A stretch of DNA of 64,000 nucleotides from Psychrobacillus soli (GTDB taxonomy: Bacteria; Bacillota; Bacilli; Bacillales_A; Planococcaceae), in contig NZ_VDGG01000003.1 of assembly GCF_006861775.1 (NCBI RefSeq), forward strand, positions 1-64,000. The letters run 5' to 3'. Position numbers and translations under genes: made by a program. How positions within the stretch are numbered: position 1 is the stretch's first letter; every line of letters starts with the position of its first letter. Below the pieces are notes generated by a model. It saw only the letters and a list, made by a program, of their open reading frames with translations. It had not been told where the DNA came from and did not search any database. This document shows, in pieces, positions 23,892 to 26,741 of the stretch.

Positions 23892-23941
23892 GTCCCTATG
23901 TAAGAAACAATTCAGGTTTGTTTCTCACATAGGGACTTTTT
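23892..23941. terminator. Bidirectional terminator between tctC-like and EAL genes
   Basis: GTCCCTATG and the following AGAAACAA pair with TTGTTTCT and CATAGGGAC. TTTTT follows on the plus strand. The stem overlaps the last codons of the convergent EAL gene. Confidence 0.85.
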
Positions 23942-24874
23942 GAGAAGTTGAGTAAATTCCTCAGCAGGAAGAGGTTTAGAGAACAAATACCCTTGGATTG
24001 TATTGCAATTATAGTTTTGTAATACTTTTAATTGTTCATTTGTTTCCACACCTTCAGCAATCACGCACATCTTCAGCTGATGAGATAATTGGATAATCAT
24101 ATTGACGATAAAATTAGCGTCCTCTTCGTGCGAACTACTTAAATTATGAATAAAAGAACGATCAATTTTAAGTATATCTATTTTTCCTTTAAAACGATTT
24201 AAATAAGAAAGAGAAGAGTAGCCCGTTCCGAAATCGTCTAAAGCAATTTTAATGCCTAAATTTCTTAGTTCTTCTAAAATGGAGAAAACTATTTCTTCTT
24301 CTTCTAGAAGGGAAGTTTCGGTTATTTCTATTTCTAAGTATTGAGGTTCTAAACTCGTTTCTTTCAATGTTTGTACTATGTTGGTGATCAAGTCTTTTTC
24401 TAAAAAGTGCGTCGCTGATAAATTAACGGAAATTGGAATTAGCGGTAGTTTTGCATCTTGCCATGCTTTATTTTGCATGCATGCTGTTTTTGTGACCCAT
24501 TTTCCAATCTCTTTTATTAATCCCGTTTTTTCTGCTAAAGGTATAAAATCATTTGGGGAAATCATACCAAGTACCGGATGATTCCATCTTATTAGCGCTT
24601 CTGCGCCAATAATTTGATTGTTTTTTGCAAAAACTTTAGGCTGATAATACAATTCCAATTGGTTTCGCTCTATTGCAAATCCAAGGTCCAACTCCAGTGA
24701 ATGTGATTTTGTTTGGTTGTCCACTGCAGGTGCAAATTCTTGATCCCGGTGTTTATCCATTCTCTCTACTTTATTCAATTCAGAATTTGTGTTTATTGGA
24801 TCGTTATTTTTATTGTCTGTGCTATTCTTAAATTGTGATGGATAATGATCGCCAATATTTGCTTTTAGTTGCAT
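23912..24874 (-). CDS. EAL-domain cyclic di-GMP phosphodiesterase
   Basis: 320 residues. The N-terminal ~75 residues are polar and without a recognised domain or membrane segment. The EAL domain (about 76-315) carries all catalytic motifs: EALIRWNHP, an Asn in ISVNLSATHF, LEIEITET, ALDDFGTGYSSLSYL, LKIDRSFI, CVIAEGVET and QGYLFSKPLP. It should hydrolyse c-di-GMP to pGpG in the cytoplasm. There is no GGDEF domain. AAGGAG lies 8 bases before ATG 24874. It is encoded next to, and in the same direction as, the PapR-like peptide gene, separated from it by a terminator. Confidence 0.92.
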   Translation of the reverse strand: MQLKANIGDHYPSQFKNSTDNKNNDPINTNSELNKVERMDKHRDQEFAPAVDNQTKSHSLELDLGFAIERNQLELYYQPKVFAKNNQIIGAEALIRWNHPVLGMISPNDFIPLAEKTGLIKEIGKWVTKTACMQNKAWQDAKLPLIPISVNLSATHFLEKDLITNIVQTLKETSLEPQYLEIEITETSLLEEEEIVFSILEELRNLGIKIALDDFGTGYSSLSYLNRFKGKIDILKIDRSFIHNLSSSHEEDANFIVNMIIQLSHQLKMCVIAEGVETNEQLKVLQNYNCNTIQGYLFSKPLPAEEFTQLLKKSLCEKQT

Positions 24875-24980: not shown

Positions 24981-25024
24981 TGAAAAATCCAATAAAATTA
25001 ATAGAATAATAACTTTATTGGATT
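24981..25024 (-). terminator. Terminator of the PapR-like peptide gene
   Basis: AATCCAATAAA (24986-24996) and TTTATTGGATT (25014-25024) form an 11-bp stem. Read on the minus strand the stem is followed by TTTTTC. It ends transcription of the peptide gene 10 bp after its stop codon. Confidence 0.8.
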
Positions 25025-25033
25025 TCGCTATAT

Positions 25034-25159
25034 TTACCAAGTATATGGTAAATCTAAAGTAGTGATTGGTTTATCGATAAATTTAGCACTTTCGTTGCTT
25101 GCGTTTGGATATAGTGCTACCGCTAATACGATTAATAAAATAATAGTTAATTTTTTCAT
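25034..25159 (-). CDS. PapR-like exported signalling peptide precursor (41 aa)
   Basis: A 41-codon gene with ATG at 25159 and AAAAAAGGACGG as ribosome site. The N-terminus MKKLTIILLIVLAVALY is a secretion signal. The C-terminus is FIDKPITTLDLPYTW. PapR of the Bacillus cereus group has the same design: 48 residues, signal peptide, and a C-terminal heptapeptide such as ADLPFEF that binds PlcR after re-import. LDLPYTW aligns with ADLPFEF at the DLP core plus aromatic residues. It is divergent from a PlcR-like regulator, with only 39 bp between start codons, and has its own terminator. In B. cereus papR instead follows plcR on the same strand. Assignment rests on layout and the DLP motif; I judge it likely. 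Confidence 0.75.
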   Translation of the reverse strand: MKKLTIILLIVLAVALYPNASNESAKFIDKPITTLDLPYTW

Positions 25160-25198
25160 GTCGTTACCGTCCTTTTTTAATAAGATGAGGTGATACTT

Positions 25199-26080
25199 TT
25201 GGAAATGAAATACTTAGGATCAGAAATTAGTAAACTTAGAGCTGAACTTGGAATGTCTCAAAATGAACTTGCAAAAAATATTTGTACACAGTCGACTATT
25301 AGTAGAATAGAAGCAGGAGAAGTGTATCCAGCAATAGATACTTTATTAAAAATCGCATTAAAGCTACAAGTCCCAGTCGAATATTTTATCGAAATGTTAT
25401 TTCATAAAAACGTGTTAGAAAGCGAACGATTAATAAAAGAAATTGAATTTCACTTAAAAGAGCACAACTATAACAAGGTAATATTGATTATTAAACAAAA
25501 TAAAACAGATACAAATAATAATTGGTTAAATTTATACCTAGAGCATATTCTACAAATAACTCGCTACAACTTAAAAATTATTACATCCGAGGAATGTATA
25601 TCTGAGCTTAAAAGTATTGTGAACTTTTCAAACCAAACGACCATTCAGTTCCGTTTTTTACATATAAAAATTTACAATACAATTGCTAATGTATACGGAG
25701 AAAATGGCGAAAGTCAAAAAAGTTTATATTACTACAATAAAATCTTGAAAGAGCATATGCATAAAAATTACACCGATCATAAAATTTATGAAACGCTCAT
25801 TACCGTTCTATTTAATAAATGTAAAACTCTTTACGATATACAGGACTTCGATGCTGCACTAGAAACTGCCAATAAAGGGATACAAAAATCGAAAGAAACC
25901 TCCTATGTTTTTTTAGTAGGAAAGTTCTTTTACTATAAAGCACAATGCTTGGAAAAAAAGAATGCTCCTCTTGCAGAAATCAAAGAAGTATACAAACAAG
26001 CTCTTTTTTTCTTCGAATTCCTAGAGCTTCCGTTTTATATCCGAGCCATAAAGCTAAATAAAAAACAGTTCTTAGACTAA
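25199..26080 (+). CDS. PlcR-like RRNPP quorum-sensing regulator (HTH + TPR)
   Basis: About 293 residues. An XRE-type HTH (about 3-60: LGSEISKLRAELGMSQNEL, STISRIEAGEVYPAIDTLL) is followed by helical TPR-like repeats to the end (TIANVYGENGESQKSLYYY, DIQDFDAALETANKGIQ, EIKEVYKQALFFFEFLEL). Motifs SRIE-G-VYP, IAN-Y-ENG and FFF--LE- match PlcR in order and spacing. PlcR binds TATG-A----T-CATA boxes when loaded with the PapR heptapeptide. I chose TTG 25199 (GAGGTG 7-9 bases upstream); GTG 25190 overlaps that site and ATG 25205 is an alternative. The partner peptide is encoded divergently. Targets are not evident, apart from one box-like site downstream at 26269. Confidence 0.85.
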   Translation: MEMKYLGSEISKLRAELGMSQNELAKNICTQSTISRIEAGEVYPAIDTLLKIALKLQVPVEYFIEMLFHKNVLESERLIKEIEFHLKEHNYNKVILIIKQNKTDTNNNWLNLYLEHILQITRYNLKIITSEECISELKSIVNFSNQTTIQFRFLHIKIYNTIANVYGENGESQKSLYYYNKILKEHMHKNYTDHKIYETLITVLFNKCKTLYDIQDFDAALETANKGIQKSKETSYVFLVGKFFYYKAQCLEKKNAPLAEIKEVYKQALFFFEFLELPFYIRAIKLNKKQFLD

Positions 26081-26321: not shown

Positions 26322-26368
26322 AGAAAAAGTTGAAAAAGATGTTTAATAGATTTTAAGCGGGGTATAAA

Positions 26369-26738
26369 AATAGTACAAGGCGGAACTACCGTAGGAAGGG
26401 ACGGGTAAACAATGTGTTTACTTGGGACTCCAAAGGATGATTTGTACAGCCTTGGCGGAAAATTTGCTTTACTGGCGAAAGGCACTCTCGTCGGGAACCG
26501 ATATATTTAGGTTCGATCCAACGTGATTTACCAAGCAAGTGAATGAAAAGTTTTTTGTGGAAGTGCAACTGAATGTTTGATGGGAAACTGTCAGATGAAG
26601 TGAACGGCACTGACGAGATGAATGATGAAATGGTCAGTAACGGTTTAAAGAAGCAACATTAGCGAATTTTCCGAGTGTATCCCCGTTTAGGGGAAAGAAG
26701 AAAGCGTAGTCCTACTGGATTGCGCTTTTTTCTTTTTT
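26369..26738 (+). ncRNA. Unidentified structured non-coding RNA ending in a strong terminator
   Basis: No protein-coding frame fits this ~370-bp stretch, which is more G-rich than the surrounding intergenic DNA. Pairings visible by eye are: CAAGGC (26376-26381) with GCCTTG (26449-26454); a CGGGTAAAC/GTTTACTTG hairpin (about 26402-26424); ACTGAC with GTCAGT (about 26609-26638); CCCC/GGGG at about 26680-26693. Last comes an 11-bp stem AAGCGTAGTCC/GGATTGCGCTT (26702-26727, two G-U pairs) followed by a T-rich run. It lacks the RNase P motif GAGGAAAGTCC and the features of tmRNA, SRP RNA, 6S RNA and T-box leaders known to me. The 5' end is a guess. Confidence 0.45.
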
Positions 26739-26741
26739 GTT

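Follow-up and report, generated by a model that had tools for sequence, protein, structure and literature searches.

A predicted PlcR-type regulator-peptide pair with a changed pherotype in the soil genus Psychrobacillus

Results

The window, i.e., the 64-kb stretch of Psychrobacillus soli DNA analyzed here, contains a PlcR-like regulator gene, a short propeptide gene that diverges from it, and a gene for a stand-alone EAL-domain protein that follows the propeptide gene on the same strand (Table 1). The propeptide ORF translates as MKKLTIILLIVLAVALYPNASNESAKFIDKPITTLDLPYTW (41 aa, TAA stop), and a Shine-Dalgarno-like AAGGAC lies 5' of its ATG, in line with the initial annotation, which had described a short minus-strand gene with a ribosome site and a signal peptide. 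The leader, two lysines (KK) and a hydrophobic stretch, is indeed secretion-like as judged by hydropathy alone. In a Pfam search to E 1, the precursor matched no PapR profile, of which we assume that Pfam holds one, and its sole match was LPAM_1 (E 0.36). By analogy with PapR, the mature peptide would be LDLPYTW. Among six related plasmid records with a peptide, the peptide is absent from the PLSDB gene table, itself incomplete, in four and is a "hypothetical protein" in two. As to the further claim that the peptide gene has its own terminator, a hairpin followed by a U run, which is likely this terminator, lies 3' of the gene (1 of 200 shuffles was as stable, and the arms were seen by eye at 10 of the 13 genus loci), but a simple terminator scan that required at least three G-C pairs found none at this gene.

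Table 1. Positions of the features of the locus within the window
Feature	Position	Strand	Basis or remark
Stand-alone EAL-domain c-di-GMP phosphodiesterase gene, candidate target	23912-24874	minus	Pfam EAL, 1.7e-70
Hairpin and U run 3' of the peptide gene, likely terminator	24984-25026	minus	fold z -3.89
Propeptide gene, 41 codons	25034-25159	minus	ORF list and translation
Last seven peptide codons, LDLPYTW	25037-25057	minus	
Gap between start codons, 39 bp	25160-25198	none	37-42 bp in the genus, 13/13 loci
PlcR-like regulator	25199-26080	plus	Pfam HTH_3 and RNPP_C; PDB 2qfc, E 2.4e-40
Regulator HTH	~25226-25387	plus	Pfam HTH_3, E 3.1e-14
Regulator RNPP_C/TPR	~25439-26074	plus	Pfam RNPP_C, E 1.5e-39, residues 84-295
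His codon at PlcR position 89 (PlcR: Lys)	25463-25465	plus	alignment to PlcR
Lys codon at PlcR position 237 (PlcR: Gln)	25922-25924	plus	alignment to PlcR
Candidate new structured noncoding RNA	26333-26741	plus	just 3' of the regulator

The regulator matches PlcR (2qfc) over almost its entire length, and its C-terminal domain has the length of five TPRs, which bears out the earlier assignment to HTH and TPR regulators of the PlcR type. No second full-length homolog was found in the genome at E 0.001. An AlphaFold model built from 3 sequences was poor (pLDDT 65.1, pTM 0.40), and Foldseek ranked PlcR first with it (E 6.4e-8) but at a TM of 0.37; given these pLDDT and TM values, we do not rely on the model. 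The longest regulator ORF opens at GTG 25190, the other candidate starts being TTG 25199 and ATG 25205. We consider TTG 25199 (or ATG 25205) the likelier start, because the GTG overlaps the regulator's own Shine-Dalgarno sequence GATGAGGTG (25184-25192) and because a one-base alignment gap places its equivalent out of frame at three genus loci (L011, L013, and L014). With TTG 25199, the 39 bp initially reported between the two starts hold.

Most of these 39 bp are occupied by the two ribosome sites, that of the peptide gene at ~25167-25175 and that of the regulator at 25184-25192. Because the gap is short throughout the genus and mostly filled in this way, each promoter should fall within the 5' end of the partner gene or past it; the two transcripts should therefore overlap in antisense. 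A promoter scan returned 2 candidates where 3.1 were expected; both are plus-strand and lie upstream of the peptide's 3' end, and the peptide strand itself gave no clear promoter. The PlcR box TATGnAnnnnTnCATA, with at most 2 mismatches, has 54 matches in the window against 58.9 expected and none in the intergenic gap, and perfect inverted repeats with 7-bp arms were absent from the 8 of 13 genus loci examined. Codon identity at conserved residues was also considered as a sign of an embedded promoter or cis element, and was rejected: the first two 15-codon blocks at the 5' end of the regulator score 0.71 and 0.67 against a mean of 0.60, but this rise is slight and other blocks reach 0.68, and 0.77 with 4 codons, so the measure shows no cis element.

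The candidate RNA downstream of the regulator matches nothing in Rfam up to E 1. Its fold has a z of -4.15, and none of 100 shuffles reached its stability. Nineteen near-full-length copies occur in 12 of the 19 genus genomes; a few stand in tandem, and the majority lie away from the PlcR locus. Weaker matches occur in 118 of 261 family genomes (5 of 19 genera), with none in the plasmids or phages searched. The sequence GTTTAA-N13-15-GGGTAT, which we take to be a sigma-B-like motif, precedes the candidate (at most 4 mismatches) at 16/16 of the other-genus loci scanned, out of 20. Covariation is weak (5 of 85 base pairs in the genus and 0 of 32 across genera).

The regulator is present in 14 of 19 Psychrobacillus genomes, with 73-86% identity when the window's own is excluded. 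A profile-level search places the peptide in 13 of the 19, some of these peptides having been missed by tblastn and picked up by other locus searches; all 13 adjoin the regulator and diverge from it, and the five regulator-less genomes have no peptide. A divergent peptide gene thus stands beside 13 of the 14 Psychrobacillus regulators; regulators of relatives without such a gene were one outcome that the initial annotation had named as refuting. The peptides end in LDLPYTW (window), LDLPHTY, LDLPFIH, LDLPLIH, LDLPYVH, LDLPFVH (two), YDLPFTN, LDLPYIH, FDLPFIN (two), LDLPFIY, and LDLPHIF. DLP is kept in all 13, with variable tail residues 5, 6, and 7, and the next residue is Phe or Tyr in 10, His in 2, and Leu in 1, so that, with these three departures, the other computable refuting outcome, loss of the DLP-aromatic C terminus among orthologs, did not arise either. 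Over all 78 pairs of the 13 peptide genes, mean pN is 0.205 and mean pS 0.569; the ratio of 0.36 indicates that the frame is under selection as a protein. The remaining regulator-bearing genome, G008 (L015, L040), has a regulator with His89 and Gln237, adjoined by neither a peptide gene nor a short EAL gene, and is possibly a listener without a signal of its own.

Receptor and peptide vary together. In the PlcR-PapR crystal structure, as summarized in PMC6568020, the sole specific contacts are those of PapR Glu6 with PlcR Lys89, Gln237, and Tyr275. Aligned to PlcR, the 14 Psychrobacillus receptors all have His89 and Tyr275, and position 237 is Lys in three (L001, which is the window's, L003, and L008) and Gln in 11. 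The window's receptor (His89, Lys237, Tyr275) and peptide (Thr6) thus depart from the B. cereus set of Lys89, Gln237, and Glu6. Among the 13 genus pairs, Lys237 goes with Thr6 (3/3) and Gln237 with Ile or Val6 (10/10). In the tree, L001 pairs with L003 as its sister (support 0.994) and L008 groups with L011 and L013 (0.998); because the carriers belong to two separate, well-supported clades, the Thr6/Lys237 combination would most simply have arisen twice. Out of 131 variable receptor columns, only 212 and 237 split by peptide residue 6, and two is an ordinary number, since 44 control groupings, each of a sister pair and one further sequence, gave a mean of 1.95 splitting columns. What is telling is the place of column 237, which counts because it had been named beforehand as a residue-6 contact (PMC6568020), for which there were about 2 chances in 131.

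A cross-genus table of 47 receptor-peptide pairs (that of PlcR, 13 Psychrobacillus pairs, and 33 others) supports the covariation seen within the genus, yet it is weaker than its appearance, being chosen for LP-type tails (27 of 71 non-genus regulators, plus plasmids), ignoring phylogeny, and following clades closely. In this table, phylogeny ignored, position 237 is Gln (7), Asn (6), or His (1) in the 14 Glu6 pairs, Glu in 15/15 pairs with Gln or Arg6, Lys in 3/3 with Thr6, and Gln (10) or Ser (1) with Ile or Val6; four pairs have other residues. Among 275 columns ranked against peptide residue 6, position 89 comes 4th and 237 6th, some others scoring equally or higher; the ranks are 112th and 168th against residue 5, and 64th and 3rd against residue 7. 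In the first 42 pairs gathered, 89 and 237 ranked 1st and 4th against residue 6. A rule by which His89 means no Glu6 was dropped, since two plasmid pairs break it: His89 occurs in 2 of the 14 Glu6 pairs, those of Lysinibacillus fusiformis and Macrococcus bovicus.

The 71 non-genus regulator ORFs contributed 26 entries to the 42-pair, 47-pair, and gene-order tables, G080 (L101) entering the first two as L023 only. Regulators with no candidate peptide, such as L193 (Planococcus glaciei), were left out of the pair tables, as were L093 (tail off register), L086, L088, L090, and L092 (IP tails), and L097, L098, and L104 (other tails); L195, on the same plasmid as L026, was left out of the 47-pair table. 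Eight genomes of genus g2 have the regulator, and no LP-type peptide was found in the regulator flanks of seven of these or in those of G024 (L102).

The divergent order had been presented as distinctive, which it is not: of the 32 non-genus pairs in the gene-order table, 18 are also divergent (7 are convergent and 7 in tandem with the peptide downstream), and PlcRa and TprA2 offer precedents. The gap in these 18 is 138-201 bp in 13 pairs and 41-52 bp, as in Psychrobacillus, in five. According to a statement in one survey, Bacillales systems including PlcR have the pheromone gene immediately downstream (PMC9765709), a statement that the pairs with another order qualify; a second survey places it, in the text cited, downstream or upstream (PMC11343458), and part of a third, large RRNPP survey gives gene orientations per cluster (PMC10075063). 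We found no description of the Psychrobacillus pair in open-licence papers, and the supplementary tables and figures of the large RRNPP surveys may list it. Three observations from other genomes deserve mention. At L138 (G558, genus g59), a precursor convergent to the regulator carries three copies of ELPFEF, near the B. cereus PapR core; two g59 genomes each have a row of five adjacent PlcR-like regulator genes (G502:C1:1073058-1077660 and G311:C14:1063420-1068256); and in G080 (L023, L101) the regulator has one in-frame TAA, with a convergent peptide (tail TLPYEH) still present.

The initial annotation had also suggested a link to c-di-GMP from the adjacent EAL gene. A short EAL gene is the next gene 3' of the peptide, on the same strand, in all 13 peptide-bearing genomes; in the six peptide-less genomes, the top EAL matches reach 43-51% identity and fall within ORFs of 576-920 residues, so we take them to be other proteins. 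The link thus goes beyond adjacency (13/13 against 0/6), but it is correlational only; in a single-gene tree, the cassette-less genomes fall in several places, two of the placements having low support (0.25 and 0.69). The window's protein keeps the EAL, DDFGTGYSS, and EGVE motifs, which we regard as marks of an active phosphodiesterase, and on these grounds it is probably active. The EAL gene is the best candidate target of the pair, and opinion could fall evenly between this and a bystander, the pair controlling unlinked genes and the EAL gene sharing only its history. A hairpin separates it from the peptide gene, its upstream sequence is poorly conserved across the genus, its short frame has two in-frame stops in G003 (L150), where peptide and regulator are intact, and no EAL homolog was found in the 18-kb surroundings of seven regulator loci of other genera, all of which would suit a bystander. 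Its strict association with the peptide points the other way, as does G008, which lost both genes and kept the regulator, and so does G018, where the gene downstream of the EAL gene was relocated and the EAL gene remained in place.

Discussion

The conserved pairing, the DLP tails, and the receptor-peptide covariation confirm, at the level of sequence comparison, that the Psychrobacillus pair is real, conserved, and of PlcR type with a changed pherotype, as the initial annotation had proposed in speaking of a PlcR/PapR-like pair and a distinct pherotype beyond the B. cereus group. The explanation that we propose with considerable confidence is quorum sensing by a peptide module of the PlcR type. 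Its 41-residue precursor would be secreted via its N-terminal signal and, by analogy with PapR, trimmed extracellularly to a C-terminal (T)LDLPxxx of about seven residues. PapR is processed by a peptidase of the M4 type; none was detected in this genome, so another protease would be needed for the trimming. The mature peptide would be re-imported by an oligopeptide permease (the genome has 16 matches to SBP_bac_5, permease-type binding proteins) and would then dock into the TPR groove of the regulator encoded next to it, where residue 6 may meet receptor positions 89 and 237, as the covariation suggests. Binding would alter the regulator's interaction with DNA and presumably raise transcription of the peptide gene and of the targets, with self-induction of the former and control of the EAL gene as supposed parts of the scheme. 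Compared with B. cereus, the pherotype would have shifted from Glu6 and Lys89 to Thr, Ile, or Val6 with His89.

The sign of this control could be the opposite, although we think it rather improbable: the regulator would repress the peptide gene and its neighbors, and the peptide would relieve the repression, as in pneumococcal TprA/PhrA. TprA is described as a PlcR-family repressor relieved by its own peptide (PMC4873490), and genes 3' of phrA are reported among the results of PMC6753895 to be up in a tprA mutant, the candidate EAL target lying likewise 3' of the peptide on the same strand. A regulator bound near the 39-bp gap could, moreover, block both genes. The closest solved relative of the regulator is, however, the activator PlcR and not TprA, and the searches for PlcR boxes and inverted repeats gave no operator for repression any more than for activation. 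That the small ORF encodes no signal, being either spurious or the gene of a micropeptide with a membrane or antimicrobial role, is very improbable: the hydrophobic leader makes up most of the peptide and is the longest conserved block in the 13 genus peptides, but the gene stands beside the regulator and keeps DLP in every case, its frame is under selection (pN/pS 0.36), its residue 6 covaries with the receptor, and LP-type tails occur beside related regulators of other genera in three gene orders.

The activating PlcR-type module, which we prefer, would extend PlcR/PapR-type signaling to Psychrobacillus, an environmental soil genus, and suggests a private cell-to-cell signal there. Its most valuable outcome is a suggested code between peptide residue 6 and receptor position 237 (Glu with Gln or Asn, Gln or Arg with Glu, Thr with Lys, and Ile or Val with Gln), which makes the signal specificity of the family directly testable by residue exchange. 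The c-di-GMP output is the most speculative part. Only tentatively do we sketch a three-gene module in which a PapR-type pheromone with an altered specificity code (Thr6 against His89/Lys237) would directly control a c-di-GMP phosphodiesterase dedicated to it, from divergent promoters embedded in one another, cell density setting c-di-GMP and thus motility or biofilm. If the EAL link were true, an RRNPP-type peptide would be tied to c-di-GMP at one locus.

Among known systems, PlcR/PapR of the B. cereus group shares with the Psychrobacillus pair a receptor with an HTH and an RNPP_C/TPR domain, in which Asn159, Asn201, and Tyr275 are kept, and a small precursor with a hydrophobic leader and a C-terminal DLP-aromatic core. 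It differs in that the PapR gene lies downstream on the same strand whereas the Psychrobacillus peptide gene is divergent and 39 bp away, in the replacement of Glu6 by Thr (Ile or Val in the relatives), of Lys89 by His, and of Gln237 by Lys, and in the PlcR box, which is not found in the gap or above chance in the window. PlcRa/PapRa of B. cereus, as presented in PMC3519770, has as its receptor a PlcR paralog whose peptide gene, papRa, lies upstream of the receptor gene, plcRa; unlike the Psychrobacillus peptide, PapRa is 93 aa long, and its active form, CSIPYEY, lies internally and retains the Glu. TprA/PhrA and TprA2/PhrA2 of Streptococcus pneumoniae likewise combine a PlcR-family receptor with an opposite-strand peptide gene (stated for tprA2 and phrA2 in PMC5436883) and candidate targets 3' of the peptide, but the accounts cited give a tail of VDLGLAD, lantibiotic-gene targets, and a repressing receptor (PMC5436883, PMC4873490, and PMC6753895). 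Divergent precursors are finally found on the plasmids pG5.M11b_1 of Lysinibacillus fusiformis (tail TTLDLPYEA, gap 52 bp), pE73 of Exiguobacterium alkaliphilum (SDLPYEV, 52 bp), pLI0213a of Macrococcus bovicus (SGLPYEI, 41 bp), and pBpOF4-02 of Alkalihalophilus pseudofirmus (FDLPFEH, 138 bp); unlike the Psychrobacillus pair, these four are plasmid-borne and keep Glu6, and their receptors are 32-35% identical.
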